From Polytrichum commune (lineage: Eukaryota > Streptophyta > Polytrichopsida > Polytrichales > Polytrichaceae): a stretch of DNA of 64,000 bases. A program made the position numbers and the translations under genes. The notes beneath the pieces are model-generated. The model ran no database searches and was not told the origin of the DNA. It was given only the letters and a program-made list of their open reading frames with translations. The DNA lies in NCBI GenBank assembly GCA_950295325.1, contig OX485808.1, positions 41,499,180 through 41,563,179 of the forward strand, written 5' to 3'. Below, piece by piece: positions 1,140 to 46,041 of the stretch (positions within the stretch are counted from its first letter, which is position 1; the number at the start of each line of letters is the position of its first letter).

Positions 1140-2537
1140 TGCAGTTCATAGTTTGGGGATGTTGCTACAGTGGACGACTTTGTTCGAGGCTTCCTTCAGG
1201 TTGTCAATTACTACCAGTTCCTGAAAGGTGATGTTGGCGGTACAGGCCCTACAAAGAAAGAGCTCAAGCTAAGGTTGGTAGAGCGTAGGGCGAAGCAAAC
1301 GGGTAATCCTTTAGTCCTCGAAGACCCCATGATGGACATGCCTGGAGCAGAAGAGTTCTGTACCCGGGTGCCTTGTATGGCTGGGGAAGAGGTGTTCGGG
1401 TCCACGAAGCGCAAAGCATATCTACCTCTTGGAGCAGAAGAGGAGTCGCACAGACATGATAAGGTCAACTTCTCACATCCCCGTGCCTCTAGTAGGGCTG
1501 TCCGGACTCGTTCCACTGACATGCCCATAATTATTGAAGAGGAAGATTCCAATGTCCCGGAAGTTGCACCCCTGGCGCCACATGCGGACGATATCGTCCC
1601 GTCCCCCATCCCCGTGGGACGGATCAGCCACGTCACTGCCGTCGAGGAGACTAGGGTGAACGTGAAGGAGTGGCACATCGCTCGGTTGCCAAAGACTTCT
1701 GCCAAATGTTGTTGGGCACAGAGAGCCGTCACCAAAAAGAAGTGTACTGAGAGAATCGTAAGGGGTGCAAAATCAACCCCTGCCCCTACGTACACCGGTC
1801 TATGGCACAGCACTAGGAGAAATGTGAAAGAGACCACAGAGTTTTTCTTCTGCTCAGATGATATCCATAGGTGCGTTAAGGGTAGCAGGCGCAAATGGGT
1901 TGTTCAATACTCTGCGGAACAGGAGAGGCCAAGCATTCCGGATGTTTGGCCAGTGAAACTTGGGACTAACCTCAAGCAATGTGAGATCCTGGCCCTCGAG
2001 GCGGCCGGATTCCAACTGCCGCAGAAAGTGCCAGTCTCACCTAGAAGGCTCTTTTCCACTGCACCGTCTCCGGCAAATTTAGACTCCGTGCCGGTGCCAA
2101 CAGATGCGGACAGGTATCCTGGGAAGAGAGAAGGGAAGCTCGTTAAACGCACCGCAACCCGTCCAAACCCTCAGCAGCGGTTATCCATGGGCTCTGCGGA
2201 CTCTCTCAAAGCTCAACTCCGCTCGGTGACGATGATTCCTCACCCTGGCCATGGCTGCATCATTGCGCTAGACTCGATGACGCCACCCGACGTGACACAA
2301 TACCACATCACCATCAGTTCCCTCCCGGGTTGCACCTGCCCTGCATTCAGAAGACAATGACCAACTTTCGAGGGCGGAGTTAATTCTCGTATTGCAAGCA
2401 TGTTTACTATATTTTTTTAAAGGTTTGCCATCGCAATCCTGATGTAGACCTTTTCATCCACGCGCCAACCTTCAGCTTCAACGAGGTCAAAGTTATTCTC
2501 GAGAGTGGAATTTTAACTCACCCTTTAGATCGGGCCT
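1140..2537 (+). pseudogene. SWIM-type MULE transposase remnant (C-terminal half)
   Basis: A 396-codon open frame (1170-2360) aligns by eye along its length with the C-terminal half of the transposase at 44319-45689. Shared blocks in the same order are ATVDD, FGSTKRK, SHRxDKVN, ARLPxxSAKxCW, DDIxRCVxGS and WPVKxGTNL. It ends in the first half of a SWIM zinc finger (CTCPAF) and hits TGA at 2358. The C-x-H half that should follow is scrambled, but the family tail (FIHAPTFSFNEV) resumes at about 2455-2490 after a frame change. The N-terminal DDE region is missing. In the family the SWIM finger is a DNA- or protein-binding module of Mutator-like and FAR1-type transposases. I found no terminal inverted repeats. 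It is more GC-rich than the 44-kb relative, so it may be younger or another subfamily. Confidence 0.72.
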
Positions 2538-2951
2538 AGGATTTACTCTAAGTGTCCCTTTCTCCCATCAACATGATAAATGAAGTAGTGCCTATTCATC
2601 CATGTTTCTAATATAGTGCACCATATACTAAGTGATATAAGATTTTCATTGAATAATTAAATATTGTCAGCTCAAAAATATAATAAATATAATCCCATGG
2701 ATTATTTTTATTCAGCTCAAAAAGTTGGATTACAATACTCAACCGTATCATGTGTCTCTATACATATTGGGATCATCATTGGTTTTCATCATCTACTTAA
2801 TTATTATATCACAATTTTACGATCATTTTGGCACTTCACGGTTCTCAAACTAAATCAGACCATTTCAAATTCAGGGCATTTATTTTATTTAGTGCCCACA
2901 CATTCCACGGAAATAGGTCCCAAAAAATTTCTATTTTTGGCAGAATTTGGA
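2538..2951. other. AT-rich spacer
   Basis: This gap lies between the end of the transposase remnant and the broken 3' edge of the LINE. No coding signal or repeat was recognised, and it does not contain the missing LINE reverse transcriptase. Confidence 0.5.
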
Positions 2952-3900
2952 TTATTCTAAGTATATTCCTGTACTATTTTTAGGGAATTCTAAATTTAAT
3001 GCAGAATCTATCCTATTTTTACCACATTTCCGCTCTCCGCTCTCCAAATCACCACTCACATACAAGCCTCGTCCGTATGGGTTGGTGGGTTTCTTTCTAG
3101 GTTCATCTGCGAAGTGAAGAACTACACTTGCATGGTCCGAGATGTCGGGCAGGGTGGGAAGGATTTCAATTGTACCGCCCACATCCTCTATGTGGGTGGG
3201 CACATAGATTCTGTCTATACGGGATTGAACCATTGAGTCGTCCTTGTGCGCATTGGACCATGTAAAAGCCTTGTCTGACTGTTTGCGGAACGTGTTCATT
3301 CTGAATGCATCTCGGACTCCTAGTCTTGTAAGTAGCCTATTCCATGCCTCCATTTCTCTGTGACTAATGCTTGATTTGGAGGATCCTCCTTGTTTATCCC
3401 TAGATTGCTCTATGTTGTTAAAGTCCCCTGCTAGTATCCATTGTGCGTCAGCCAATTCCACTTGTGCTAGGTGATTCCATAGTACTGCCCTGGGTCCGGT
3501 ATGACTATATCCGTATACGTTAAGTATGCCTATGTGCAGGTGGGGGCTGAGTTGAAAGGTGGCGTATTGTGCTCTTCCGGGGTAAAGCACTCCGTGATGT
3601 GTTATGGTGGCAGTCAACTTTTCCGAGAGAATCATTCCTGTACCCCCCTTTGAAGTGTGCTGAATGCGCCGAAAAGGTTGCTTCATTCCATAAGTTGGTG
3701 CCCCCTCTAGTTTCTATGAGACGAGCTTGGTTGAGGCAAGCCGTCTCCGGGATTTTTGTTTCTTGTAAGAGTATAATATCAGTTGGAGGTAGTGTGTGTT
3801 TGAAAAGATCCTTCAATTCTTGTCTTTTCCTTCTGCCCATGAATCCTTGGCCCAGTCCTCTAACGTTCTGGGTTGCTATCGTAAGTCTGTCTCCTTTCAT
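2952..3900 (-). pseudogene. LINE ORF2, endonuclease domain only (frameshifted, 3'-truncated)
   Basis: The ATG at 3900 lies four bases after the ORF1 stop. The N-terminus reads IATQNVRGLG, then ILLQETK, which is the start of an L1-type endonuclease/exonuclease/phosphatase fold that nicks target DNA. The frame shifts in a C6 run (3643-3648). In the new frame follow ILAGDFNNIE, SRIDRIYV and ISDHASVVLHF, the GDFN, SRIDRI and SDH motifs of the fold, so all main catalytic motifs are visible. The frame ends at 2952. No reverse transcriptase or RNase H follows, although an intact ORF2 would have about another 1000 codons. Loss of the 3' part is unusual, because target-primed insertion normally truncates the 5' end; a later deletion or insertion at about 2950 is likely. 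Confidence 0.85.
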
Positions 3901-3904
3901 GAGT

Positions 3905-5798
3905 TTACGAAGTGGTAGCTTCCTCTTGTTGAAGCATTGAATATGGGTTGGTGGATGACATTGTGTTCGGTGTCTGGTAGGTGGGGTCCTTGGCCTCAGT
4001 CATGTCTCTCCAAATGGCTTCCATTTCCTGGTTGTCTTTGATGTTGTCTGTTGGTTGATCGGTTATCAGCCTTGCTACTGCTTCTGGTATTTTCCGCCAT
4101 TCCAAGCTTCTCCCTTTCCTGACTTTGATTTCCTGTTCTTGGACCGAAATATGGGCATACATGGTACATGTATGCTCTCCCTCCATATTGGTTGTCCATT
4201 GTGCATACCATTCTCCTTGTGACCATTTCTGAAAAGGTGACATGTTGGTGTTGTTGAAGATTAGGATTTTGTGGAGGGATTGCGTGACTTCGTTAACCAC
4301 GTGCTGGCGAGCTGTGTGTGTGGTCCAAGGTATCCCTGCTAGCAGTTCAGCCACCAGAACTGTTGTTATGATGGTAAGGGGATGCGTTTTTCTATCTACC
4401 AGGTATTCCTTCTTTTGGTTGATAAGGAATGGTATGATTCGCAGTCTTTTCCTGTGGGCATGTGGGGTGTTTGGCATTCCTAGCGTTATCCAAAAGCCCT
4501 CTGCTAATTGGCCTGTACGGTATCCTTGTCTTGTAATTGGTGCAGAGTCTCCTTGTTTCAACTGCTCCTTTCCTTTGTCAGTCGCTCTTCCTCCTTCTGC
4601 ATTTTTCAGTCTCCAGGCGAATGTGTTTGTTGGTGTGATTGCTTCCGGTGTTCTGCGCATTTGTGGTGGTTTGATGGGCGTGTCTTGTGTAGGTGATTGT
4701 AGTTGTGGGAAGTTCGTGTCATTGGGTTGTAGGGTCATGTTTGGAATGTTAGGTGAGGTTGGCTCTGGGGGCGTTTGCTCTACTTCTATCGGAGGTTGTG
4801 CTATCTCTACGTCTGCTTGTGCGGGTACTGGTTCCACTGCTATCTCCTTGTCTGCTGGTTGTGGGATGTCTTGTGTAGGAGTTGCGGTTTTTGGGATTTC
4901 CTTGTCTGCTGGTTGTGGGATGTCTTGTGTGGGAGTTGCGGTTTTCTCATCGTGTGTGGTGGTTGTCTCAGGAGGTGGTGGGTGGGTCGGCATGCGTTGC
5001 CAAGTTGAGGTCCGGTTGTCTCTTCGCGGGTGGTCGCTCTGTTTGTACTTGGTGTCCTTTTTGGGGTAGTTCCGCACCTGGTGGTCTCGAGACTGACATC
5101 TTCCGCACTGATTTGGTAACCCACTGAACTCTAAACTGTATTCTACCACTCCGTCCCCGTCTAGTCTGGGCAATACTACAGTGTTTGGCAGGTCCCTGAC
5201 CAAGAGTCGGATTCTTGGCCCAAATAATTTCGCCCGGTATGCATCGGAGTTGTCTACTGCTATCACTTGCCCTACTTGTTCCCCTACTATTCTAAGGAAA
5301 GCTTCATCTCTCAATATATGGCATAGGTCTACTATTTGCATCCACACTGGAGAATCTAACTGATCCGCCGCGTGAGGTGTTTTGGCGTCCAGGTGTGGTT
5401 TCCAGCTTGAAAACGTGATAGGCGTTGATTCGCATGTCAAGTCGGTTTGTGTGAGTGCGTGTATTCTGCCTTCCGGCAGCGTGAAGGTGACTTCGAACAG
5501 ATTATTAGCTTTCAAGGAAAGTAATGTGAGGGATGAGTGTAGGTTTTCTCGGGCCCAGGCTGTGAGGGCTCTGAGCCCGGCCGGGGTGCTTACCTTGGAG
5601 TCTCCCTATGAGAGAGAGGTTGGCTTTTGCTGCGCAAGTTGATCGTAGAGTTGTGAGGAGTGCGTCTGGGATCTCCGCGATTAACTTGCATGGTCTTGCT
5701 TGTGTGTCTGCCTCAGGATCGTTGCTCGTGGTTGTGGCATATTGCTGTTTGGTGGGTGGGCGGAGGATGGAGAATGATCGTCGGGTCGCGTGAGTCAA
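3905..5798 (-). pseudogene. LINE ORF1 (DUF4283/CCHC gag-like protein, frameshifted)
   Basis: This is a nucleic-acid-binding ORF1 of a plant L1-type retrotransposon. Translation from 5798 gives a basic start, then LIGRLQGKHPG of the DUF4283 domain. A one-base shift at about 5550-5590 moves the frame into the 536-codon frame that begins at 5515. DUF4283 continues to a zinc knuckle written CGRCQSRDHQVRNYP, in which the fourth ligand Cys is Tyr, so the knuckle is probably dead. A Pro/Thr/Gln-rich linker follows with a 16-residue unit (starting TATPTQDIPQ) repeated twice in tandem. The C-terminal half has no domain I can name. ORF1 stops at 3905 and ORF2 starts at 3900, the typical tight spacing of plant L1 elements. 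Confidence 0.85.
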
Positions 5799-6200
5799 TC
5801 TGGCTGCTGGTTTCGGGGGTATTACCGCTCCTGCCTGCGCGAGTGATCTTCTACAATGCGTACAGAGTTGGCCTTCGGCGGCTACTTGCTTGTTCCGATG
5901 CTTTCTAGTGGCCTCTATAGATTATCAAATTGCTTGTTTTTGGGCTCTCTAGACTCGTATTGACATCTGTAATCACATGGTAGCGACATCGATCCTCTAA
6001 TCTTCTCTATCTGCATGAACTATTGCATTCTTGCCTTCTCCCTAAAAATTCGGATCTCACCCGAATTTTGCGGAGCTCCGCCCTCGTCCGTCAGACCGTC
6101 AGCCGAGTGGCAAAAATGCCATGAGCCCTAACCACCAAGCCAAGGCCCGTGGTGCCTCATTGCCGGTTACCTTTAACCAACATCAAGAGCTACATAAAAT
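5799..6200 (-). mobile_element. Probable 5' untranslated region of the LINE
   Basis: This stretch lies upstream of ORF1 on the minus strand, is GC-richer than the DNA beyond 6200 and has no coding frame of its own. The composition change near 6200 is the only evidence for an end, so the border is approximate. No target-site duplication was found. Confidence 0.35.
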
Positions 6201-6211
6201 GTTTGCTTAGT

Positions 6212-6435
6212 TCAGTGATCATGGAGATTTTTGGGCACAATCGGTTGAAATTCTAGTGTTTGCAAGTCCAACCAGTTACATGTTCACATCCTCCAGTTTT
6301 CCTTCATTAAATTGGGGTATATTCTTTAAATTCCTCTAAAATGATCGGTAATTTTCCTGCAGTCTTGAACTTCAACCGGTTCATTTGTAACTAACTACCG
6401 GTTCTCCCCGATCATTGGCTTAGTTATAAATAAAT
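6212..6435 (+). repeat. Dispersed repeat family R1, copy a
   Basis: About 220 bases recur at 28768-29010 (same strand) and 61800-62045 (opposite strand). Shared landmarks are TTTGGGCA, AATCGGTTGAAAT, CAAGTCCAACCAGTTACATG and CTTGAACTTCAACC, in the same order and spacing. The copies start with a TG-rich edge and end near a TATA-like run (TATAAATAAATA at 6424), which fits a solo LTR with promoter or a TRIM. No target duplication was resolved. Confidence 0.65.
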
Positions 6436-8462
6436 AGCTATAAGATAGTTTATAGTTTCATACCAAACTAGCATTTAACTTGACTCTCAATGTAATTAAT
6501 TTGGTCAATTTTCATATCCTCCTCTCATGACATGTGAGCTAACAACTTAGAAGTGAGGGTTGGTTAGGTTAAGCTTAGCTAATGCTAACTATGGCAAAGT
6601 CCAATGCAGTCTCAAATTCTACTTAAAAACGATTGACTCCAAAATGGCAGTGTGGTTGGATCTTAACCTTGGAAATTAAAATAGGTTATGTAAGCTTTTG
6701 AAATCCTCCACACACGTTCAACCTCAACAATAATGCTATGAACTTACAGACCCAAATTAATTGAATCGTGAGGAACCGACGTATTCATTTGCATGCGTGT
6801 TGTGGTAATTTGCTTCCTTACATTTTAAGAATGTTGTAACATACGTGTTGAAATTTGATGGTTTAAATTTGTTGGATGTCTTAACAAGACAACTAAGGGA
6901 GTAATTACTTTATGTACTCTGGTTGTCATCTAACATAGGCCTTCTTGGTTGGTCTACAAAATGCTTCACACATGTCCAAGATATGTTTAGCTACAACTAA
7001 AACACAAACACATAGGTGTCTACATCTTTTGAGTAAGATGTGAGCATAAATGTAAGTTGTTTACAAAATGACCACTATAACCTAGGCAAAAACGCAAGCA
7101 TTGGTCTAACTTGTAGTCACTTATTCAAATATTTCTTGGAACTTACATTTCTAGATGAACCTAGACTTTTGTGTACCACCTAAATTATGACAAATCAAGA
7201 CGTTTTGACAAGATAAAATAACTCATTGATAACTTACAAAAAATCACCGTCCATATTACCCTACATGCTAATTTATGAAGGTACAAATCCTCCCCCTCCC
7301 CCCCCCCCCCCCCAAGAAAAGCCACATACTATCATGTGATTGCTTGGAACTTGTGATATGACATAGAATTTAAATATATGTAGAACATGCCCAATTGTAC
7401 CTAGACTTATGGTATTCATTTCACAAAATCTTTCATTTTGACCAATCAGCATGAAACCTATGAAGGAAAGCCAACTCCACCCATCGAAGTAAAGGTTGAA
7501 GGAGATCCAATGGGGTTAGCTTACAATAACCTCAAACCAAACTTGTGTTGGCATACATTATTGGTATTTATGGCACTCTTGAAGCATTGATGATGTCTAT
7601 TGCAAGAATTCCTTATCACTTTTCACCACGGGATGTAACATAAGGTAGCTTGCATCACAACAAAAGGAGATGCACCTCATCATCCATAGTTTTCACAAGT
7701 ACAAAGCTTTGACTCTCAAGGCTTTTGTTGAGTTGCTTCCCCCATTTTCTTTGGAAACCACCCATCACTCAACCTTCCAAGCACTAACTTAATATCAACA
7801 TTGCCTTACCCCCCAATCCTCCCCACCATTACATGGGCCCCCCATGTCCGTTACTCACCATACAAAAACACTTGCAACATAATCCAACTACACAACCAAT
7901 ACACAATTATAGTCACCAAAGACTCCTCCTAAATAGCACTCCCACCCTTCAAGAACTTATTGAAAAATTTCCATCCACCTCCCCCCCCCCCCACCAACAC
8001 ATACACACATAATTACTCCAAGAAACCATAAACAAAACACAACCATTACTCAGTTTCTCATAACACCCCTTCCTAGCTAGGAAAGGGCTCCCAAAAATCT
8101 CAATAGACCTAACCCACCCACACACACACATAGTACAACACATGGATCATATGGAATACCAACCACTTAAGCTCAAGCCTCCTAGGAATTCCCAAATCAC
8201 ATCACCCACAACCCTCCCTAATCGCAACATTACTTCTACAACATAAATTGAAAATAATGAATCTATAAAATTCATAGACAAACAATTCCCAATGACAAAA
8301 TTATATACAACAACACAAATGACATCCTCACATGCCTATGAAGACCATTCATACGGTATGCCCCCTACCTGCATAGGCATCCCGATCATGATCCACAAAT
8401 ACACCCTGGAACCACACCTATTGAGGTCTCCCCTTATCTAAAAATTAAACATAAAAATAAAA
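6436..8462. other. Gene-poor DNA, turning A/C-biased from about 7.2 kb
   Basis: No gene recognised. Up to about 7.2 kb it is plain AT-rich DNA. From there the plus strand becomes strongly A/C-rich with C-runs at 7290-7313 and 7979-7992. This bias is shared with the endonuclease-like fragment at 8.5 kb, so it may be untranslated or eroded parts of the same retroelement. Confidence 0.4.
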
Positions 8463-8917
8463 ATGAAAATTACAAACAAACTCCTCACCCCTTCCCCATT
8501 GTCCTTTTACACCCATACATGCCCTTGCGTGGAGAAAATATTACAACTCATCCTTATCATTAAAACACACATCATCAACACACTCAACACAAACACCAAC
8601 CACGGCCACTATATAGGCGGAGACTTTAATAAAGACATCGGCCTCATTGGTAGGATCACGTACCAAAGTCATAATCCACCCATGAGAGAAGATCACGAAT
8701 GGCACCAGTTCTTGGAAACTTGCAAAATGACCTCAGTTCAAAACAATATCACATGTTCACGACACGGAGGGCTTACTTACACATCAACAAGCATCATAGA
8801 CAAACAAACACTCCCTTGGAGCTCAACTCTTATCACTACCAAGTAACACTACACATTCCAAGAAACACCATCATAAACCCACATCTTCATCCAAAACCCT
8901 TCCTCAACCTAAAATAA
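8463..8917 (+). pseudogene. Endonuclease-like fragment of an A/C-biased retroelement
   Basis: A 127-codon frame contains YIGGDFNKDIG, then about 25 residues on FLETCKMTSV, then GLTYTS. This is the order GDFN, a helix ending in a Leu/Asp-rich turn, and YTW-like strand of endonuclease/exonuclease/phosphatase domains in non-LTR elements. Codons are almost all A/C-rich (Thr, Asn, His, Ile), unlike the LINE at 3-6 kb. The frame breaks at about 8846 and drifts downstream. The call is a resemblance of short motifs, so a chance match cannot be excluded. Confidence 0.45.
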
Positions 8918-9428
8918 ACTACCCCATCCCAAACACAAACCTCCACACTCAAAAAAATGTTCCACAAACAAGCATACATGGAAATTGCCAAAGTTGCCAA
9001 GAACCTAAATAACAAATACCAATTGAATTAGGATGAATGGATGGATGCACAAAACAAACTTCAAAACATCATTAAAACACTAAGGAAATGTGTATGCACC
9101 ACGTAACAACCTCAAAAAAGAATGGGGCTTCCTACCAAGAGCCAAACAACGCACATGGAAGAACTCCTCAAAACTTACCATGCCTTAAACGATCCATAAG
9201 AGTTATCAACCGCTACACTCTCCAATTGGCACCTACACTGAGACATAAAATAACTGGTCACCATTCCCGACATACCCTTGCTACTTAAAAAGTAACATCA
9301 ATGTATATACATTAACATGCAGTGTCCATTCACCAATTCCTACTATGCCCGTAAGGGAATGGGGTTGAAGGTGGCTTAGTGCCTATTTTTAGTATGTGGA
9401 CCATTATTTAGTTTAGATAGTGAAGTGA

Positions 9429-12250: not shown

Positions 12251-12659
12251 CACGGGGAGGTCACTTCATTGTCAAGTTGACACCACGTGCGGACAAAGTT
12301 TGCTACCCCTATATTACATGCCATATATAATTTTAAAATTTATGATATTTTTTCTACATATACATAACCATTGATAGTATCTTTTGTATACTTTTTTGAA
12401 ATTTTTGTTCATCTTTATTTTTTTAGTAATTGTTTTAGTTCAAATCTGTGTCATTCTAGTTAGAAATGGTATGTTTTATGAAAAAAACAAATCATCAAAT
12501 TTAGTTACCACTTTTGACTATGTCATAGGTACTGTGTATATCTACTCATGAAAAACATTTGATAAAATTTTGACCCATTTTGGTGGTGCAACTTACCAAA
12601 AGAAGATTTTTTTTGGTCGCACGTGGTGTTCAACTTGACAATGGAGTGATCTACCCGTG
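12251..12659. mobile_element. hAT-like MITE with perfect 8-bp target duplication
   Basis: A 409-bp element. The left end reads CACGGGGAGGTCACTTCATT and the right end, read inward from 12659, CACGGGTAGATCACTCCATT. Pairing of the arms continues through TGTCAAGTTG and CACCACGTGCG for about 40 bp. The flanks are identical: GAAGATGG at 12243-12250 and 12660-12667. An 8-bp duplication with ends starting CA fits the hAT superfamily. No coding frame inside, so it is non-autonomous. Confidence 0.88.
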
Positions 12660-21457: not shown

Positions 21458-22089
21458 TTAGTTTTGGAGTAGGAAAGGAACATCAAAACTGGGATAAACT
21501 AGGCTTGGACTAGTACAAAGTGCCAATTTGAGGGTGTCAAAGGCATTTTTCTCCACTTGGTTCCATTTGAAGGATATACCTTTCTTGAGCATAATGTACA
21601 GTGGAGTGGCTATGGTTGCAAAGGATTTTTTTAATATCATGTAGTAATTGACCAAACCCGAAAATGATTGGACTCCCACAATGTTCTTATGTGCAAGAAA
21701 GGTTTGTACAACCTCTATCTTGGCATGGCCAGGTGTGATCCCTAAGGCATAGATTACATGACCCATGTATGTGAGCTCATCATCCATGCCTATGCTGCAT
21801 GTTTTTGGTTTCAACTCATACCCACATCAATTAGGTGTTGAAAGATTTAATCAAGGTATTGTAGGTGGTCATCAAAGTTCTTAGAATACATGTTGATGTC
21901 ATCAAAGTATACCAAAGCAAACCACCATCTCAAGTTGCCTAACCATGTATCTATAACTCTTTGGAAAATACTAATTACATTACAAGGAATGCTATCATGT
22001 GAGCGGTGAGTAGTGCACGGTAACATGCGATTTGTGAGAGCAAAAAAATTCTTTGGTAATAAATCCACTAGTATCCTATTACCGTGCAA
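21458..22089 (-). pseudogene. Gypsy reverse transcriptase / RNase H remnant
   Basis: The first frame contains IFQRVIDTWLGNL, then LVYFDDINMYSK with the YFDD catalytic box. After a break, the second frame gives YMGHVI, SFSGLVNYYM, FKWNQVEKNAFDTLK and the start of RNase H (SLVYPSFDVPF). This is the C-terminal half of a Ty3/gypsy RT. The N-terminal half, expected at higher coordinates, is cut off at about 21984 where a MULE-type terminus begins. The frame upstream of that point is translated MULE end, not RT. Confidence 0.88.
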
Positions 22090-24120: not shown

Positions 24121-24740
24121 CCATTGCCATTAGTTAGACCAATTCTAGAAATCAATGTACAATTGTTGGAGAACAAAATTGTGGGTGGGTATAGGAAAGG
24201 AGACCGTGTGTTATATATATTTTGGTTGTTAAAAACCTTGGTGTGAGTTCATTGGTGATAGACAAGAAGTGCAAATCTTGAAGTCCTTATTGCAACAGGT
24301 AAATCATGATTTTGAGTAGACGCTTTCAAGAGATGAGGATTTAATGGTCTTCAAAGGTAAAATGTTTTGGGTGTGTGAGGGTAACCATACGAGTATTGCA
24401 TGGCACAACCATATCGATCAATTTCATGCAAATGAAATTGATTGGCATTTTTGTGTTTAATGTAAGATGCCTTGATTTCCTATATGCCATGAACAACGTT
24501 ACATGTTGGTATTTGATTTCATTGTGTTTCATTTGAAAGTATTCTCATGTTGATGATAGTGACTTCTTGCCGGGAGTGCAAATCTATGAAGAATAACCAT
24601 GTCACGACAAACTTGATACATAAAATCCACCATATTCGTAGTTTCGAAACTTTGAAGCTCCATGAGTTCAAAACCCTCTTAACACATGATGATTATGCAA
24701 GATGTGAAAAGAAATGTGCAGGAAGCACTTGATACCCTCT
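24121..24740 (+). pseudogene. Fragment of the ParB/methylase-like transposon gene (second copy)
   Basis: Plus-strand translation in one frame with stops gives PLPLVRPILE, GGYRKGDRVLYI, KGKMFWVCEGNHTSIAWHNH and WHFCV. These align with MPIVRP, NGYRDGDYVFYI and KNKMFFIWDRNHR of the minus-strand gene at 38.3-38.7 kb. The next frame (24547-24732) gives NNHVTTNLIHKIHHI and DDYARCEKKC, matching exon 3 of that gene (NSHVSTNLVHTLYRM, KNYKRCEEK). Introns appear at similar places. This copy keeps the G-N-H of the ParB-like GNHR signature better than the 38-kb copy. The fragment is non-functional and may continue with unrelated-looking sequence to about 25.5 kb. Confidence 0.78.
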
Positions 24741-34986: not shown

Positions 34987-34996
34987 TTATTATTCG
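34987..34996 (+). other. Left target-site duplication of the 11-kb MULE
   Basis: TTATTATTCG, identical to 46032-46041. A 10-bp duplication lies in the 9-11 bp range typical of Mutator-like elements. Confidence 0.93.
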
Positions 34997-35100
34997 GGGG
35001 AGTGCTATCTTATGAGCGGTGAGCGATGAGCGGTAACTTATGAGCAGTGAGGAAGATGAAAATTTTGGTAATAGGGCCACCAATATCCTATAACCGTGGA
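34997..35100 (+). repeat. Left terminal inverted repeat of the MULE
   Basis: Contains three GAGCRRTGAGC-like subunits in 50 bp, then AATTTTGGTAATAGGG and a CCGTGGAAT block. Closely matched by the solo terminus at 21984-22093. Confidence 0.85.
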
Positions 35101-38100
35101 ATTGTGTCCTTAAAAATGATGATTTTATGATTTAGTAATAAGAGGGTTGAGAAGGATAAACAACATGAAGTCCAAAAATTTATTTATCAGTAGTAGCACT
35201 AGACATGAAACTATCTTTTGCCTTGTCATCTATATATATTCGAGCACCTTTGCATTGCGAATTGATTTTGGAACTATAGCAAGATTCTTCATTTGGATCC
35301 GAATCTTCGAGATTCAACATTGCAATTGCAACATTCTCGGCATATGATGGGAGACGCGGGCTACGGCTTGGACTTCGTAGGAATTGTCTATGTGCCCAAA
35401 ACGGGAGACATGTCCTCTTTCCAATCATATTCCTGAAATCAAATCGATGAAACATGTAAATAATGTGAAGAAATAAAAATGAACCAATGAATTAAATGAA
35501 ACGAATGAATTGAATAAAAATTTATTATATTAAAACTTACTCACACTCAAATTCAAGCATCTCCTCATCCGAGAGGTTATCATCTTCTTTCGTGAGATCT
35601 TGTATATTCTCCTTAGATGACCCCTCTTTCAAAATGTTTTCCAAAAGCGGTTTCAATATGTGCTCAAACATGTCATTATCACCCTCAAATGCAAGAAGAT
35701 GTCTGCCACATGCGCGTGTTGCTAGGATAGAAGCTCCAGTGGAACATGTCAAATCAACAACGCGTCCATTCGATGGTGTAAACAATTCAATAAGATCTTG
35801 AAAAAAAACGCGGCGATTTTTTATATGGCCCCCTCCAAGGTCTTCCCGATTTTTGAAGAAGCATATTTTTTTCATCCACAAAATTGAAAAGCAAGTTTTT
35901 GCTTTTCAATCCAGTGCCAAAAAAAGTGGAGTTTGGTTGTCTCGTGGATTTTGTGGTAGTAAAATCCCTTACCAAGACATGAGCCATAAATGCCGGAGTC
36001 TACAAAAAAATGTAAATTATGTTAAAACTATATACAATGCAAATAACACCAAAATAATTAAATAGAAACAATTGTGATGTGTTATACTTATGGTGTAGGT
36101 TGGAGACTCCGGATCCTTGAACACCATGTACGAATTGAGGCAAATAAAAGTCCTAAGAACTTTCATATTGCCGTTGTGTAAGGTTGAATTCAAAACCTTT
36201 TTGGTTTGCATATCGATAGCAGAAAATACTATGAGGACGCCATCATCAGACAAGATGGACTTACACAAGGACATTGTTGCAACCATCCAGTTCTTGTCAT
36301 ATTTATTCCAAAGAGGAATTTCAGCAGGTCTATTGGAGAGGTTGAAGTCAAGACCGTCGGGAAATTGCAGAAAAACCAAGTCAACGGCAAATGGAGTCGG
36401 ACTTCCCATGACATCAAATTCGCGATTGTCTTTGAACTGAAATACCACAACATATCACAATATAAGACACAAAATAAAATCCAAATGAAAGTAAGAACAT
36501 TACAAAAAATACCAAAACAATAATACTTACGTTTTCAAGAAATGCCCGCCATTGGATCCACTCAGGAGGGCCTACTTCAACCCCTTCAGACTTGTTCTTG
36601 ACAGCAGTAGATCGAGCAAAAGAGAGCGTGAAAAGTTCTTCAGTATGAATAATTTTTTTCTTAAAACATTCGTTAGCGCACGATGAACAGCGTCATAGGT
36701 GCTCGAGTAATGAAATTCCAATACATCGCACCCAGACTTTGAACTTTCGCCTCCAAGTGGATTCTTATCCAAATCATTGGAAAGAACAAGCAATTCTTCA
36801 TGTTGTGAAATTTCCGATTGATCTTGTATTTTGGTTTCAGGAACATGTTTCCTCTTACGACGTTTTGTCTCTTTTGGTTCTGGCTCTCTAAGTTTAAGCT
36901 GCATAATTTGTGCTTGCAAAATTGCAGTATCACGAGGATCCACATTCTTAGCATCATTTATCTGACGGATTGTCTTCTCACTTGACGGACATGCATCTAT
37001 AGGACAATCAAGATACCAACCACAATCCTCATAGTGTGGGAGCGACCAATCCAAACAAATCTCAGTAGTGAACATGCATGAATCTCCTGCACCAGTGTCA
37101 CGCCAATTTGGGAAAAAATGAGGTTCCCCTATAACGCATTTATGTGGCATCAAAACATATCAAAAATACCTACACACAAAAATATTGTAAGTCAAATATT
37201 CCAAGACAATTTGACAAATGGAATCAAAAAAATAATAAGATCAGGTTGTACCTGTATAATACACGTTTCATAGCAAGATCAATATTAGGTTGCTCATCCC
37301 AACCGTTGTGTTTTTTAACTTTTCCGCTTTGGAATTCACGATAGAATATTGAATTGAAAGCCGCAAACTTCCAGATTTGGATATACTCGGAGAGAGTAGG
37401 CACATCTGCAGGCAATTGAAGAAGAAATGAAAGAATACTTTGAAGCTCTTCGATAGCTTTTTTTTCCAACTGTGCCCAATATGTACACTTTGATAACCAA
37501 TCATCAAGTGCAGAATCAGAGAGGGGCGATTTCGGGAAATGCAATGCATCTTTGTCAAATCTATTGCCAATCCAAAGCTTGAGCCATCCAACTTTGACTT
37601 CTGCATCCACATTACTGACAGCAACACGATGAAGTTTCTCTTGTAGCATTTCAGGCACCGAAAATGAACCCCAATGGTACTTAACTTCTTCAAGGAAAGC
37701 AGAGGTAAAGTTGATGTCGGCAATCGCTAGTTGTTTCGTAAAACTAGAAGATAACATTGCACGTTTTGTGTTGACAGCTGCGGACATTACTTTTGAAACT
37801 CCGTCTGATGTCCGTTTAAGAAGATAAGTTACATTGTACTGGTTGAGAGCAATATCGCTAGCCTCAACAAGTTCTTGCTAAAAAACCAAACAAAAGTCAA
37901 TATTTATAAGTACATATAAATGTAATGTAAAATGAAGATGAATAAACATAAGGCACATATTAGCAATGGTAGAAGAACTTACACTGTACATGTAATCCAA
38001 AAAAATTGGTCATGTCAAAGAATACCAAGTTTCGACGGACTTTTCCTCACATCGTTTATAATTCTTTGGATCCAGTTGCGTTCTAAAGGAAGTCAAAGGC

Positions 38101-39210
38101 ATGGTGCCAATACTTTGCATCCGATATAAAGTATGCACCAAATTGGTGGATACGTGAGAATTTTCGGTTGACCTGAAAAAAATATTAAATTCATTAGATT
38201 CATGATGATATAATTTGGAAAACAAAATATAAATTAGAAATAAATGTAAAAAAATAGGTAAGAACATTACTTGATGATGTCATGCATAGCAGTCAACAAA
38301 CTTGGAATGTCGTCAGGCTCGGGTGCCAAAATGATAGAATCCACAAAGACATGACGTTCATAATCTTCGGTATATACGCGGTCAATATAATTTTTCAAAG
38401 CAAAAAAATCTGTGATTTCTATCCCATATAAAAAACATTTTGTTCTTGTATGACGTCAATGACAAATCTGTATCCAATTGATATTCAAACATGGCATTGG
38501 CTTGAGCCCAATTTGGGCTCCAAGATGCGCGAACCTCATCATCCACGAATTGAAAGTTTCCCTTAGAATCGGTGGCCGATATATAAAACACATAGTCCCC
38601 ATCACGATAACCATTGAAAAAATCAGCCTCCAATTTAGTAATGTCACCCTTCAAAGCAGGACGCACAATCGGCATAGAAACCATGCGACATAAGACTACA
38701 CGCAAGCGAGCATTAGGTCCAGCACGGATTGAAGAAATTGTGGAAGTGGAATTGACCTTTCGTTTGTTCGTAAGCTTCCGCACTTTCTCTTGATAAGTTT
38801 TATTGTCACCATCATTATCTTCATCCGAGTCAAAATTATCGAGGGATTCATTTATTTTTTTCTTTTTCTTATTATGAAGATTTGACGATATATCCTGATA
38901 ATGATGAACTTGTTGAGATGGACGATCTTGAATTGAATGCATTCTGGAATCATCATCAGTAGAAATAGGAGTCGTTCTCTCCAAATCCATTGATTGGTCC
39001 TAAAACAAATGAAATAAGTTTCATAAATATTTCAAAACCAGTAGCAACACATTAGCAATAACATTACAAAAACAACAGCAATAGCAACAACAATAACAAC
39101 AGAATACCACGAACACAGGGAAGAATGACAAAAATTATTCTAGACACTGCCATTTGCACCTTTAAATATTATACGATTACGATGGCCGCTCAACCCAAAA
39201 CTACAAGGGC

Positions 39211-39903
39211 AGACCCTGTACGTTAACGCACAGGGTCTGTGTGTCCAACTACATGTCTACCAAAGTTGCACGCGAGGTTTGGGTCGAACGACCCAAACTG
39301 TCCACACGGTTTCGATCGAGCGACCCAAACCGCCTACAGCCAGTTTGGATCGAACGACCCAAACTTTCTGCGCGTGGTTTGGGTCGCTCGACCCAAACTG
39401 TGAGTGTGGTTTGGGTCGTTCGATCCAACTAGGCAGACAGTCTGGGTCGAGTGACCCAAACCATGCTCACAGTTTGGATCGTTCGACCCAAACTGTCCGC
39501 AATTTACGCCTGATTATGCGCAATTACCCAGTCATCACGAAAGTACAAATAAACCTTGTACTGCACCTGTAGATGAGAGAGCTTGCAGCGACGAGCTCAG
39601 GTCCGACAGATGAGAGAAAAAAGACTGAATGCTTTGGGGGTGTGGCAATTTATACTACTCGTCCCTACAGCCATATTTAGCGTTGCTCTTCGTGGCCCCG
39701 CATAGCCGCTAGAAAGTTGCCAGCGTAGACCCTGTGCGTTAACGCATAAGGTCTACTTGCCCAACTTTGCGAAGCCTCTAGCTAGGCAAGTAGACCCTGT
39801 GCGTTAACGCACAAGGTCTGTGGTGGCAACTTTAAGGCCACTGTGCGTTAGCGCATACACCCTGTGCGTTAGCGCATAGACCTTGTGCATTAACGCACAG
39901 GGC
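39211..39903. repeat. Scattered GTGCGTTAACGCAC palindromes
   Basis: Six copies of the palindrome found in the array at 40.3 kb, at about 39211-39239, 39726-39754, 39790-39820 and three back to back at 39840-39903. They carry an AGACC...GGTCT extension instead of AACCC...GGGTT, and the last group has a GCGTTAGCGC variant core. Confidence 0.88.
39276..39496. repeat. Array of seven TTTGGGTCG..CGACCCAAA hairpin units
   Basis: Units begin at about 39276, 39308, 39342, 39376, 39408, 39440 and 39471, each a 22-24 bp palindrome (TTTGGGTCG, two to four central bases, CGACCCAAA) followed by 8-10 bp of unrelated spacer. The pitch is 31-34 bp, close to three helical turns. Three more units lie at 44174-44261 in the transposase gene. 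Confidence 0.93.
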
Positions 39904-40319
39904 CGAGACATGAATTTGAAAAAAAATCTGGAATTCGTAGATTTGCCAAAACTTGTAAAATCTGGAAAAAATGCTAATGGGGTAAAAAAAAAACAAAAAT
40001 ATGCTATATTATCAAAATCTCCGTAGCTACAAATTCTTCTTATATTTTGTTTTGGTTTGAAATCATTTTTTTTTTTCATTCTTCTATCTATTTCCTTGTT
40101 TTGGGCCACCTCGTAGATTTTGGGTTTCGGGGCAAAAAAAAAATTATGCTATTTTGTGTCATTTTTTAGCTCCTATAATGTATTGCATGAATACTTGAGT
40201 AGACATATTTCTCATTTCTTGCATTCTAACCCCATTTTGAATAGTTTTTTTGCTCCTATGCTCTGAACATCGATTTAAATTCATACAATATATATTTGTT
40301 TTACTTTTAGGCTCTCCTA

Positions 40320-41030
40320 GTCGTTTTACCTCCCAACTTTGGCCTTCGTAAGTTGCGCTTACAAACCCTGTGCGTTAACGCACAGGGTTTCTCCTCCCAA
40401 TTTTGGTCTTCCTAAGTTGCGCTTACAAACCTTGTGCGTTAACGCACATGGTTTCTCCTCCCAACTTTTTGCCTCCTAAGTTGCTCTTACAAACCCTGTG
40501 CGTTAACGCACAAGATTTCTCCTCCCAACTTTTTGCCTCCTAAGTTGCTCTTACAAATCCTGTGCGTTAACGCACAGGGTTTCTCCTCCCAACTTTTTGC
40601 CTCATAAGTTGCTCTTACAAACACTGTGCGTTAACGCACAGGGTTTCTCCTCCCAACTTTTTGCCTCATAAGTTGCTCTTACAAACACTGTGCGTTAACG
40701 TACAGGGTTTCTCCTCCCAACTTTTGGCCTTCCTAAGTTGCTATTACAAACCCTGTGCGTTAACGCACAGGGTTTTAGCTCCCAACTTTTGGGCTCCCTA
40801 AGTTGTTCTTATAAACTCTGTGCGTTAACGTACAGGGTTTTACCTCCCAACTTCTCGCCTCCTAAGTTGCTCTTATAAACCCTGTGCGTTCTCCTCCTGA
40901 TTTCTAGCCTTCCTAAATTTCTGTTATATACCATGTGCATTAACGTATAGGATTTTTCTTCTCCAATTTATAACGTCTATTAATTGCTACTACATGACAT
41001 GTGAGTGAACGTACAAGGTTCTCCGTCCTA
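40320..41030. repeat. 64-bp tandem array with perfect palindromes
   Basis: The palindrome (arm AACCCTGTGCGTT, then its reverse complement, 26 bp) recurs with core starts at 40368, 40432, 40496, 40560, 40624, 40688, 40753, 40818 and 40882, a period of 64-65 bp. Two decayed units lie at about 40932 and 40998. The spacer reads CTCCTCCCAACTTTTTGCCT, CCTAAGTTGCTCTTAC. At 40882 the right palindrome arm is missing and the next unit comes 14 bp early. Confidence 0.95.
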
Positions 41031-41358
41031 ACTTACAACTTATGCACTATCAAATTATGTGAACGTTGAACTAACTTACCTTTTTGTTTGTCGTCTTCTT
41101 TGAACCCGTCTTCAATTTGGACTTTGATATACGATCGTCTACATCTTCTTTGGTCTTTGCAACTTCATCATCCTCCATCGCATCAAAATCCAGTGTCTTC
41201 ACAGTTTCTTCTACCGTATTCAACAAGTTTCTTTTCCCTTCCTTATTTGCATTCTTCTTTCCCACACTGAGTCTGAACCTCTTTTTCTCGGAAGTGAAAT
41301 ACAAAGCTTTCCTACGTCTTCTCTTCGGCCTCACGGGTGTTCTCTCTACATCGTCCAC

Positions 41359-42021
41359 GATCTTTGGTGTCTATGATATGTTTTCTATCAGGTACTATCA
41401 TTTATTCTTCCAATGTATCTATCTCACAAAATCCGGCGTATATTACGATCACATGTTGTAATTGGCGTTCAATGAACGAGATATTTCGACGCGTTTGTCA
41501 TTATGTGTTTATTTTTGTTATATCCGCCAAAATTTTCTGACACCTAATTTGTTCTATTCATAATTATCAATAATTTATTTTTACAACCAATTTTAATTCT
41601 TTCTACATCTACGTCAGTCCACACATATATATTTTAAATTTCTACCAATACTTTTAGTATTTGACGCCATTTTGTGTATATCCTGCTCGTAAATATTCTC
41701 TGACTATTATCGTATTATGTCCACTTCTATATTATTAGATTTTATGTATCACACGCTTTCATCTCCATCCATTAGTGTATCACACGTTTTCATTTCCATT
41801 CATTTCCTCACACAACTCTATACAAAAGTAACATTCACCCCATATTTTTGTGATGTGTTGTTCATATGTTCTTTTGATTTTCTATGGCTACCATTAGAGC
41901 TCATGGATCTTTTGTTCCCTTCATCTTGTCACTCCAAGCTGATGGTCATGTGAGTATTTTAGAGGATTTACTTAATTTGAGATTCAACCTCCAGATAGGA
42001 ACCATGTATTAAGAGCATGAG
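41359..42021. promoter_or_regulatory. Divergent intergenic region of the MULE
   Basis: The 663 bp between the first exons of the two divergent genes should hold both promoters. It is T-rich on the plus strand, with TATATATTTTAAA at 41625-41638 as a possible TATA element. Nothing else is clear. Confidence 0.35.
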
Positions 42022-45000
42022 ATGTACTCTGCAGATGGAGAGGTGTATGAAACGATTTTGGTTCCAAAAAATAGAACTGATGTTGGTTTTATTTGGATCT
42101 TAGGACCTAGTTCATTTAGGGTGATAGGACTTTCTGAGTCTCAGATGCAAGCTTCAACTATCATTTTGACAAACGAATCCGGTACATCCACAGTTCAAAT
42201 TCCCTCTATCGCACATGTTAAGATGAAACCCCTTGATGATAGTGTGTTTGTGCTATCAGATTCAGAAAATGACATTTATGCATCTGTTGATCTTTCAAAC
42301 ACATCGCCATTTCCATTTAGAAGTGTTCATTCTACTCCTTCCCAACTTCCTATACATGTAGCCAAATCCCCTTACGGGCTTATGTACAAGAAGGTGGTTC
42401 CCCAAATCTCACCTTCTCAACGTCCTCCACTATACACTTCATCTTCATCTACAGGGTTGACTATGGTTAATGCCTTGAAGCTGACAAAGTCAAGAAAAAA
42501 ATCAAAGTCCGATCTTACATCCATTGAATTTGACAGTATAGATGTTCGTGAAGTCAAGTACTTACCATCTTCTTTTAATGGTGATGTTTTGTTTCTCTTG
42601 CCTCCTGTGGCACTCAAAGCTCCAAGTACGTATGGTCGCTCAATGGACGGCATGGACAAGATGTGCGACAGTCACCCTTGGTACACCACCAAAATCACGA
42701 ATATCCAAAATGACTTTGGACTGTCCTTCCGGCGCTCTACTTGTGCTGGTCATCTCCAATGTCATAATGACTACTGTGATTACATGAACCGCAATGGGGG
42801 CCTCCGGAACAACACTGAATGGGCCGGTTCAACTCCTATCCCATTTGCTGGATGTTGTTCCTCCTACTAAGTCCACTGTCGAGTGTACGGTATGTCGTTC
42901 CACACCTGTGTGCATTGCTTTATGTAATGTTCGAATCATATACATCCACTCCACATCCGTTGGAATGTCCAGGGCTTGCATTCATCTTGGTGTACATGAT
43001 CACCCTGTGGCCAATGGCACATGCCGTGAATCATTGGACATGGCATACCAATGCGTTGCAAATGAAGTATTGAAAATACCCACAGCAAAAAATTCAGCTA
43101 TAGTTATGGCGGCGAGCAAACAATTCTTTGCCGATTACCTTCTCAAATCTCCCGCAAATATCGAAGGCCATTACTTGGTTGGTTCATCCCTAGAGGTCGT
43201 CATGGACAAATTCAGCACTCTTGCGTCTTCAAATTGTCGTAACTTTGTATCTGGATCAAAGTATTTTTTACGTAGTGGAATGGGAACTATGGATAGTATT
43301 ATGGCGCTCAAAGACCACTCTGCTTTCAAATTCGTCCATGGTAGTCGGTTCCCAGGGCAGTCAAAGGACAAAGTGTTTGTTTTCAAGATGTCTGTAGACC
43401 TTCCAGGTAGTGGTATGGAGCTTGTGAAGAGGATGCAAGTCGGTGGGGATATGGAGAATTCATGGATTATGTTTGACCCTTGTCAAACATTTGAAGGACT
43501 AGACGACCATGGCTTGCCATGTGTACGACAGTTGATACTGTAAAGTGTTGACTATTGCGTGTTGTGACATGCAAATCAAAAGATGGTGCAGTACAAATTT
43601 TCTTTTGGGAAATTTTAATGCTGTTATGGCAGAAAATGGTGTACCAAACGTAAACTTCAAAGGGTTTATGGCTGATAGTGCTCAAGCTAATTGGAATGCG
43701 GTGAAGGCGATTTATGGGGATGGTGATCCAACTCTACCCATGGTTGCACGTGAGCGTACATGTCTTTTTCATTAGTCCGCAAGCTTGGATAAGGTGACCC
43801 AAAAGTATATCAAACCATCATTGCAATTTCAACACAAACAAATATGCAAGGATTACAAAGACGCGAAAACAATGGACGACGCTGAGACCAAGTACCATGT
43901 GATTCGTTCTTGGTGGTTGTCATCTGGAGCTGCCTCCGAAGAAGGCATCCTTGGCCTTTCAGAGTGGTTGGGATTTTGGCACTTTCGTTACAGACAATGG
44001 GGTGGCCATATGCTACTTGTAAGTACATATCAAACTTCATTACTCAATGTAATATATCTTATGTTTTTCTTATCCTTGTCTTTTTGTGTTGTTTATAGGA
44101 TATGACAATAAAAGAGTGTGCGGGAATACCAACATGCAACCTTGCAGAGACTGTACACAACAAAAAAACAAACAGTTTGGGTCGTTCGACCCAAACCTTG
44201 TAGGCAATTTGGGTTGTTCGACCCAAATGTGGCAGCAATTTTGGGTCGAAAGACCCAAACCTAGATATATAATCTATCTTATGTTTGTCTTATCCTTGTA
44301 TTTGTGTGTTGTTCATAGGATATGACAATAGAAGAGCGTGCGGAAATGCCAACATGCAACCTTGCAGAGACTGTACACAACAAATGGCTCCAACAGTCCG
44401 GCAACAAGATGACTTGTTTATATGAAGCTACAGTGGACGACATGATCCGTGCCTTCATACAAATTATAAATTACCAGACATGGTTGAAAGGGGGGGGTCT
44501 GATGGTGAAGGTCATGATTCGGCCTCCTTGAAACTCAAAGCAACTGCCAGGTGTGGAGATCCAAAAATGTTGGCTGATGCCATGAAGTCTTACCCAGGGG
44601 CAAAAAACATCAACACTAGAGATTGTGCATTGGAAGGGTCAGAACTCTTTGGTTCCACCAAACGCAAACTCAACCTACCACCGGGTGCTGATTGTGACTC
44701 TCATCGACTCGACAAAGTGAACTATTCCATTCCTCGTCCCAACACTCGAGCAACTCGTCAACGCATAGAGGAATCGTTGAGTTCTACAACTCATGGTGTG
44801 GCTCATACTACATCCGTGTTAGAGACTGATTGTCTTGCTTCCAACTTGCACATTGCAAGATTACCACCCAACTCAGCCAAACGATGTTGGACACTGCAGG
44901 CCATTACAAGGACTATGTGCAATGCTAAAATCGGGACTGGGAAACATGGCACACCTGCCCCAACATACAAAGGGCTCAGGAAGGAATTTCGATCTCCCAA

Positions 45001-45689
45001 CAATGTGGAGTATGAATTTTGGTTTTACCCTGACGACATCAAGCGTTGTGTGAGTGGCAGTAAGAAGAAAATATGTGTTGGATTGGCCTATAGTACCCAA
45101 CACGTGGCCGGTGAAGATAGGTACCAATCTATCGAGAGAGGAGGTTTTGGCACTTGAAGATGTTGGATTTCAACTACAGCAGAGGGAGGCATTGTCCCCT
45201 CGTCGTAGGCTTTCAACAATTGCAACTCTCCCCATCCCTCACTCGCATTTTTCTATGCCACCAAACCCGGATGCCCACCCTACATTCAGGTTTGGGAAGA
45301 CAGTGCATCGTAATCCAACAACACCGCTAGCGGATCACAAAAACAAATGGGAGAGTGCCGGACTCATGGAGGGTTACTATGTGGTTGGGGTCACTACCAT
45401 TCCATATCCGGGCTTTGGAGTGATAATCAACATTGTCTCCAAGCAAGATATCACATACCATGTCACAATTGGCAACATCCCGCATTGCACATGCCCGGAT
45501 TTCACGAAAATGTCCTCTTATGCATTGGGAAAGAAAGGAAAATGGGTGTATTGTAAACATCTTTATTATGTGTTTAGATTTTTGTGCAAGGTGGATTACG
45601 AGAGTGACAAGTTCATTCATGCACCTACATATACCTATAACGAGGTCATGCGACTACTTGAACTTGCTGGTATTATAGAGTGTGAGTAG
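42022..45689 (+). pseudogene. SWIM-type MULE transposase (two exons, multiply broken)
   Basis: Exon 1 is about 42022-44018 (donor CTT|GTAAGT) and exon 2 is 44319-45689 (acceptor CATAG|GATATG), phase 0. After a Ser/Pro-rich N-terminus come a Cys/His block (CAGHLQCHNDYC) and CRSTPVC, a possible zinc ribbon. The DDE-type core holds GFMADSAQANWNAV and CLFH, the D..A and C-x-x-H hallmarks of MULE transposases. The C-terminus is a SWIM finger, CTCPDF then YCKH. The frame changes at about 42850, 43470-43500, in G8 at 44490-44497 and at about 45065. In-frame stops lie at 43500-43502, 43533-43535 and 43773-43775. The protein would bind the element ends and cut and paste the transposon. The start codon is uncertain. 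Confidence 0.85.
44099..44318 (+). repeat. 220-bp duplication carrying three hairpin units
   Basis: The intron end plus exon start (about 44049-44160) is repeated at 44275-44385, offset 220 bp. Between the copies lie three TTTGGGTCG-type palindromes (44174-44197, 44205-44229, 44236-44261). Using the second acceptor (44317-44318) turns the whole insert into a 300-nt intron and keeps the transposase frame; the first acceptor (44097-44098) would read into the palindromes. Confidence 0.85.
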
Positions 45690-45929
45690 TATTGCAAATG
45701 GTCTATTAAGTACCATATATTTGAATGTCAAAAAATGACATGTTTTGGTTTGGATTGTTATAATAAAAATTAGCAATGGACTGGAAGTATTTCCAATGAT
45801 CCACGGTAATACGATTCCTTTTTGCTTCATTTGAACTCTTTACATTTGAAAATCTTCAATTCATGTAGTACTATATTTAGTTCATGTACCCTAAACCCGT
45901 GCACCTTTACTATTTTTGAATTCATTATT

Positions 45930-46031
45930 CATATATTACCGCTCACTACTCATGTCGTATTGCTCACCGCTCATGTCTTACTGCTCACCGCTCACTGCTC
46001 ATTGCTCATCGCTTATAAGATAGCTTCCCTC
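45930..46031 (-). repeat. Right terminal inverted repeat of the MULE
   Basis: Contains at least five GCTCACCGCTCA-type subunits (45948-46016) before the outer TTATAAGATAGCTTCCCTC. It has more subunits than the left end, so the inner CCACGGTAAT block sits farther in (about 45801-45810). Confidence 0.85.
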
Positions 46032-46041
46032 TTATTATTCG
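46032..46041 (+). other. Right target-site duplication of the 11-kb MULE
   Basis: TTATTATTCG, identical to 34987-34996. Confidence 0.93.

Follow-up and report, generated by a model that had tools for sequence, protein, structure and literature searches.

In a 64,000-nt stretch of the genome of the moss Polytrichum commune (assembly GCA_950295325.1, contig OX485808.1, positions 41,499,180 to 41,563,179 of the forward strand; 'the window' below means this whole stretch), positions 34997-46031 are occupied by a mobile element with exact ends, likely a Mutator-like element (MULE), that carries a second gene on the - strand, divergent from the transposase gene on the + strand. Intron 1 of this second gene (39000-41079, - strand, GT-AG borders) holds arrays of short palindromes, which the first-pass annotation of the window had not mentioned and whose type varies between related families together with the encoded protein. 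We propose that the second gene encodes a resident accessory protein that self-targets the palindromes of its own family, most likely countering silencing as VANC does, and we give this reading a probability of roughly 55%.

A resident second gene

The plastid PsaB of the assembly (408 Mb in 64 contigs, apparently mostly in seven large ones) has its best PDB matches in 6l35, 8htu and 7ksq (1,700.6-1,702.4 bits, with the following ones at 1,665 and 1,628), which are Physcomitrium entries; this is in keeping with a moss as host. We searched the assembly with four marker queries: the first 124 bp of the element, a stretch of exon 7 of the second gene, the end of the transposase gene and the last 152 bp of the element. 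These gave 437, 145, 879 and 411 candidates, respectively, with 40 matches scored for each. Ten further copies (A-J; W denotes the window copy) were cut where at least two markers stood 10-13 kb apart, and sequence of both genes is present in all ten. This co-occurrence is not wholly built into the sampling, since the selection of A, C, D, E, I and J was independent of the second-gene marker, and that of C and I independent of the transposase marker. Identity to the window copy is about 90-97% over the main gene blocks, with 84% near exon 1 in A and C, and the copies fall into two subfamilies, nine W-type copies versus A and C. Whether the methylase-like gene always accompanies the transposase, a question raised with the first-pass annotation, can thus be answered positively for the copies cut, but one pair of ends (uncut) lies just 3.0 kb apart, so it seems that there are also short, deleted derivatives and that the two genes are not carried by all copies.

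When the majority base of nine copies is taken exon by exon, the second gene reads as eight open exons with GT-AG borders and in-frame joins, encoding 1,173 aa. The basic exon 1 (41080-41361; present in 10 of 11 copies, not in J) is open in the majority and splices in frame to exon 2 (38271-38999), which encodes a conserved domain with the motif W(D/E)GNHR in relatives. Exons 3 (37983-38172), 4 (37252-37877) and 5 (36531-37169) follow, as does exon 6 (36092-36436), which the majority reading and hhalign identify as the region of methyltransferase motif IV (LQFPDG opposite DPPYG). Exon 7 (35541-35999), assigned by the majority reading, a PHROG match and hhalign, covers the SAM-binding motif I region (DLTCSTGAS), and exon 8 (35180-35432) ends with the stop codon. 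The first-pass annotation had counted seven exons, and it is the 5' exon at 41361-41080 that raises the number to eight. The window copy itself is not functional: measured against the majority, its reading frame is broken in exons 2, 5 and 7, exon 3 contains a stop, and the splice donor that follows exon 6 is altered.

Between the two subfamilies the second gene has a dN of 0.022 and a dS of 0.162 (dN/dS 0.13 over 1,163 codons; positions at which A and C disagree were given the W-type base, so that dN and dS both come out lower), and the transposase gene has dN/dS values of 0.16 (710 codons) and 0.05 (453 codons), copy G being omitted. The private changes of single copies, as compared to the majority, give ratios of 0.50-0.89 in eight of nine copies; the ratio of 0.13 in the remaining copy, H, is taken for that of a mosaic. 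Purifying selection thus acted on both genes during the active period of the family, with single copies decaying later. Synonymous divergence of the second gene is 0.21 in exon 1 and 0.42-0.44 in exons 2-3, then falls through 0.17, 0.11 and 0.03 to zero differences in exons 7-8, a gradient from which it follows that the subfamilies probably recombined inside the gene.

The gene is not confined to this family. The relative of exon 2 that the first-pass annotation had placed at 24.1 kb is real, though decayed, and belongs to another family (24127-24470, + strand, a protein-level match; about 24200-24457 in the scored search). As the same 5' terminus recurs in degenerate form (tgctatcatgtgagcggtgag) at 21985-22040 of the window, this relative probably sits inside a second element, older but from the same lineage. 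Used as a protein query, it gave 1,039 first-look candidates (a rough count), of which 150 were scored; aside from the query's own place, the scored relatives are 40-57% identical and many are without stops. Eight divergent loci, F1-F8, cut at 12.6 kb, represent about six families (F1/F6 and F2/F8 are close kin). Exons 2-4 are present in all eight and exon 7 was detected in six (not F4 or F5), while the transposase stands upstream and divergent in seven; in F5 none lies within the cut, which is perhaps too short. F8 is a complete element that has the same terminal bases and is flanked by a duplication of 9-10 bp. As compared to the window, identity is 65-94% for the transposases of F2, F7 and F8 (main pieces) and only 40-42% for exon 2, so the second gene either evolves faster or has been exchanged. 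We also considered a recombination break upstream of the transposase ATG, as the DNA similarity of F2, F7 and F8 begins at 41881-41884, and dropped it, because noncoding DNA diverges faster.

MULEs are known to capture fragments of host genes, and by that general precedent the second gene could be a passenger of the Pack-MULE kind. We regard this as a very remote prospect: the low dN/dS, the complete set of eight exons, the presence of the gene in every further copy cut and of its exons 2-4 in every divergent locus, as well as the number of first-look candidates, all stand against it, and selection together with spread rules out a captured host gene. The view of the first-pass annotation that this is a resident transposon gene is borne out by the same observations.

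Intronic palindromes and the predicted protein

In the window copy, the main array (40329-40890) consists of 64-bp units with the 22-bp palindrome CCCTGTGCGTTAACGCACAGGG (type P1), imperfect copies of which also lie at about 39209-39238 and 39729-39905. A second array (39276-39498; imperfect units also at 44176-44262) is built from the half-sites GGGTCG-NN-CGACCC (type P2) and is present in the nine W-type copies and absent from A and C. In A and C the units are of 53 bp (in A also of 66 bp), and their spacers are unrelated to those of the window copy; that the palindrome is nevertheless identical argues that it is under constraint. The exact 22-mer occurs at 444 sites in the genome, as compared to none for the reversed-pattern control. 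The 50 sites listed of these 444 form 11 clusters, all of them in element copies or at the expected distance inside them: for seven of them (32 sites) the distance to the element markers is as expected, which is a matter of placement rather than of reading, and beside the remaining four (18 sites) each adjoining cut of ~2.2 kb contained sequence of the element.

Other families carry other palindromes. While P1 is found in W and A, type P3 (GAGGCCTCGG-NN-CCGAGGCCTC) is found in F1, F6, L048 and L049, type P4 (CCTCTCGG-NN-CCGAGAGG) in F5, L041, L044 and L054, which belong to two neighbouring clades, and type P7 (TTTCGG-NN-CCGAAA) in F7 and L059; L046 has GTCTCGG-NN-CCGAGA, and F3 has CCACGG-NN-CCGTGG in an array that stands farther upstream than elsewhere. 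The count matrix of seven palindrome types over loci is nearly block-diagonal; its strays belong to the L046 type, with one site each in F2, F4 and F8 and two in F5. In the loci that carry them, the types agree with the tree of exons 2-3. Upstream of exon 2, perfect palindromes are more numerous than in every one of 60 dinucleotide shuffles in 16 of 29 loci. Since the centre of P2 takes nine different dinucleotides, we read the palindromes as pairs of half-sites; hairpin RNA is an unlikely purpose for them. Two further arrays deserve mention: GGGTCG-NN-CGACCC units at F7 12255-12530 (L038), about 1.2 kb past the F7 3' end, and 60 copies of a 75-bp unit at F4 4754-9268 (L031-L032), which contain no perfect palindrome where sister families have palindromes and which are possibly an array of half-sites.

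Because the half-sites have a free 2-bp centre, are arrayed and vary by family with the protein, we propose a family-specific, dimeric DNA-binding protein. It would combine an N-terminal W[DE]GNHR domain with a C-terminal fold of the beta-class methyltransferases, be encoded divergently from the transposase and most likely bind, as a dimer, the inverted half-sites 2 bp apart in intron 1 of its element, thereby marking copies of its own family only. From this position between the two divergent genes it most likely acts against host silencing, as VANC does in Arabidopsis VANDAL elements, an analogy that makes anti-silencing the likeliest role. The methyltransferase part would either deposit a base mark or, given its altered motif IV, act as a SAM-binding or structural module.

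Several observations weigh against this proposal. Palindrome binding, dimerisation and anti-silencing are steps that we infer from sequence patterns and analogy; gene and array are physically linked, so that shared descent alone gives part of their correlation; and profile comparison ties exon 2 to no known DNA-binding family, the single-sequence structural model being unusable. In 13 of the 29 loci the palindrome count is not above all 60 shuffles, and among the 16 that exceed them F2 and F8 do so with palindromes of another kind. F4, L043, L047, L051 and L058 have only half or near-palindromic units, and L056 has near-palindromic units with the core. No array with this core was found in the 1.4-1.6 kb examined of L042, L045, L050, L052, L053, L055 and L057; in these seven one may lie farther upstream, as it does in F3. 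F5 has a further array (F5 1455-3010; L033-L034) beyond exon 4, in the place where one would look for exons 5-8. Finally, the second palindrome type of the W-type copies is explained by no family seen here, and its array past the F7 3' end suggests that an unseen family owns it.

The position of the arrays, between divergent genes and in intron 1 of the gene itself, and the joint retention of both genes in the copies and loci cut would also suit a transposition helper or an autoregulator, whose binding to the array controls the divergent promoters or pairs the element ends and which has no part in anti-silencing. We consider this unlikely: both the type and the size of the arrays vary (2-10 P1 sites per copy in the family of the window, 27-28 P3 sites in F1 and F6), which looks more like a recognition race than promoter control.

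The C-terminal part of the protein matches the phrog_67 DNA methyltransferase family (2e-7). PF01555 gives E-values of 0.00077 (fragment) and 0.13 (whole protein) for the family of the window, of 0.00016 for F3 and of 0.034 for F8, all below the cut-off, which the F7 fragment passes (31.2 vs 26.7 bits). F7 also matches the CcrM model (6.5e-5), far under the cut-off of that model; the F6 fragment has no Pfam match, only a weak PHROG match (0.004), and phmmer found no match in the PDB to the methyltransferase part. By hhalign, five families align over 190 columns (94.6%, E 6.7e-8) with two prokaryotic ParB-methyltransferases that come from small contigs of the same assembly. These are fusions of ParB and a DPPY methyltransferase, at L061:1468-2799 (G000 C12) and L063:230-2365 (G000 C10), the latter apparently split by an intein-like insert; both contigs are likely bacterial or phage contaminants. 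In beta-class methyltransferases motif IV precedes motif I, and the catalytic motif IV of the class is (D/N/S)PP(Y/F/W). At its position the family of the window has LQFPDG and the other four families read have DLPEG, DIPEN, DVPDN and DLPEG, so DPP(Y/W/F) is found in none of the five; the SAM motif I is largely kept (DLTCSTG, DWQCGVG, DWQCGTG and DAYASTG; VAYASTG in F8). The beta-class methylase-like part named in the first-pass annotation accordingly stands as far as its ancestry goes: by these matches it is homologous to N6/N4 DNA methyltransferases of the beta class. Enzyme activity is another matter; it is doubtful, and we think it unlikely, because motif IV is altered.

This bears on a further alternative, in which the protein is an active methyltransferase, for adenine or N4-cytosine, and labels the palindromes of the element with a self mark that blocks silencing or steers transposition. 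The alignment over 190 columns, the F7 score above the PF01555 cut-off and the retained motif I would favour such an enzyme, as would the centres of some palindromes, with GTTAAC in 50 of 54 P1 sites and mostly GATC or GTAC in P3, P6 and P7. It is nonetheless improbable in our judgement, since DPP(Y/W/F) is replaced in all five families and since the centres of P2, as well as those of P4 (AA, AT, TT, GT and AG), are too variable for a fixed symmetric adenine site.

The exon 2 domain was aligned over 24 members chosen from 28 frames, and, because the search script itself demanded (D/E)GNH(R/T) and G..GD, the invariance of the (D/E)GNH and G..GD letters is partly a matter of choice. The first-pass annotation had called this part ParB-like, a label that found no support in Pfam (ParB models match 0 of 24 members), NCBIfam, a PDB profile search (best E 0.33) or hhalign against four prokaryotic ParB domains (0.2%). 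With the insert columns removed, hhalign gives scores of 1.9-2.7, lower than those of the top eight among 60 controls that were reversed or shuffled (4.7-8.8). The phage ParB-like family phrog_1033 matches four of the 24 members weakly (best E 0.075), and the single-sequence fold of the domain (pLDDT 45, no alignment used) is too low in confidence for use. A G-x-x-R motif is present, and by eye the motif spacing resembles that of ParB, no more. For the exon 2 domain, viral and genome contig collections yielded 27 and 9 pattern matches, respectively, none of them confirmed, and no relatives of exons 2-3 were found in phages; these contig and phage searches did not extend to the methyltransferase part.

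Element boundaries and transposase

The first-pass annotation described one mobile unit with exact ends, a perfect 10-bp duplication and a divergent gene pair, and all of these are present. The element starts with GGGGAGTGCTATCTTATGAGCG, ends with CGCTTATAAGATAGCTTCCCTC and is flanked by identical 10-bp copies of TTATTATTCG (34987-34996 and 46032-46041). Its 5' terminal inverted repeat (34997-35051, + strand; GGGGAGTGCTATC...) is matched in all 11 cut copies, the window included, and begins some bases off the expected position in copies F and G; the 3' repeat (45977-46031, + strand; ...GATAGCTTCCCTC) is matched in eight of 11 and does not lie inside the cut in B, E and H. The right ends of these three cuts (L005, L011 and L018) share one sequence in place of the element 3' end (...GAACCCGGGTTGATACAGACC... 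in B and E, with its continuation in H). The 48-nt arms at 35004-35051 and 45977-46024 are 79% complementary. As all 40 matches scored among the 437 candidates for the first 124 bp are at least 98% identical, the termini are not due to chance. Eight copies, counting that of the window, have both ends; their terminal bases agree, and each has a duplication of its own, perfect in six (W, A, C, D, F and G) and conserved at nine of ten bases in I and J. A search with joined flanks recovered unbroken empty sites for four of the eight copies (C, F, I and J), with 91-99% identity across the junction; that of copy C is a neighbouring tandem copy of its target. For W, A, D and G, no empty site was found among the 40 scored of 2,964 candidates. 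Apart from the short derivatives, then, the outcomes that would have spoken against the first-pass annotation, a lack of other copies with both genes or empty sites with different boundaries, did not occur.

The transposase gene comprises exon 1 (41884-44018, + strand, from the ATG at 41884) and exon 2 (44319-45689, + strand), which encodes a SWIM-like CxC...CxH motif; both are broken by frame breaks in the window copy. Scores against the SWIM model PF04434 are 15.1 bits for this exon and 12.6 and 11.1 bits in further comparisons, as compared to a cut-off of 19.6, and the Pfam MULE transposase models match neither the consensus nor the F8 or F4 transposases. By eye, the transposase has a D...D...CxxH layout, which we take to be that of the group. 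The assignment to MULEs thus stands on the 10-bp duplication, the termini shared with other copies and the SWIM-like motif, which together make it likely, and not on the Pfam models. Duplications of 8-11 bp are described for MULEs (PMC6446971). The start of transposase exon 2 is duplicated at 44085-44318, with about three imperfect palindromes of the GGGTCG type between the two versions; copies A, C, G and I have no match to this intervening stretch.

Relation to known systems

In the open literature we found no report of a gene of this type in a MULE or a land plant, or of one paired with palindrome arrays, most subscription papers and preprints lying outside the search. The first-pass annotation was aware of no such system in plants; in our search this held for MULEs and land plants, but ParB-methylase accessory genes of algal transposons have been published, namely a ParB-like and DNA methyltransferase accessory gene in Ectocarpus Sola1-1 and similar genes in green and red algal transposons (PMC12477816, which cites Iyer 2011 and Petroll 2025). 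The general idea is therefore not ours; the MULE and land-plant setting and the palindrome arrays appear to be new here. Like the gene of Sola1-1, the moss gene is long (about 1,100 aa), lies on the strand opposite the transposase and encodes an N-terminal and an N6/N4 methyltransferase domain. Unlike it, the moss element belongs to another superfamily and host, its motif IV is altered and its ParB part is unconfirmed, a distinction drawn by description; palindrome arrays are not mentioned in the available portion of the Sola1-1 account (PMC12477816).

With the phage-type ParB-methyltransferases (phrog_67) the moss protein shares the C-terminal methyltransferase, over the 190 columns aligned by hhalign, whereas those proteins have DPPY and a recognisable ParB domain, and hhalign finds no N-terminal link. 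A second gene is itself no novelty in MULEs, as MuDR carries mudrB; to our knowledge, neither mudrB nor mutB of Mutyl is methyltransferase-like, and nor is VANC. Mutyl, like the moss element, has its mutB as a second gene (PMC6446971).

The closest functional parallel would be VANDAL with its VANC protein. The targets of VANC are arranged as tandem repeats that differ from one related element to another, protein and target evolving together (Hosaka et al., PMC5735166), and the noncoding regions that VANC targets are the same as those targeted by host RNA-directed methylation (Sasaki et al., PMC10398659). Both systems join an accessory gene to a MULE, both have short tandem motifs in noncoding DNA, and in both the motif and the protein differ between related elements (PMC5735166, PMC10398659); in the moss, arrays of a family-specific motif do occur in the noncoding DNA of the elements, with the palindrome excess in 16 of 29 loci. 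The moss protein differs in its methyltransferase fold and in the inverted-repeat units of ~22 bp that it would recognise, VANC being compared by description only. Somewhat more tentatively than the proposal for the single element, at a little under even odds, we suggest that land plants have a second, independently evolved class of self-recognition, in which a methyltransferase-derived, possibly catalytically dead protein and intronic palindromes co-diversify; such pairs would occur in many families of a single moss genome, with a copy number of perhaps a thousand or more, and would do for these elements what VANC does for VANDAL. If this is true, an element-specific DNA-binding factor arose from a methyltransferase fold of prokaryote type, and the escape of transposons from silencing with the host spared becomes testable beyond flowering plants. 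The natural protein-palindrome pairs, many with open exons, would show how specificity changes, and sequence-specific anti-silencing by transposons would, as the comparison with VANC implies, have evolved at least twice, from different proteins.

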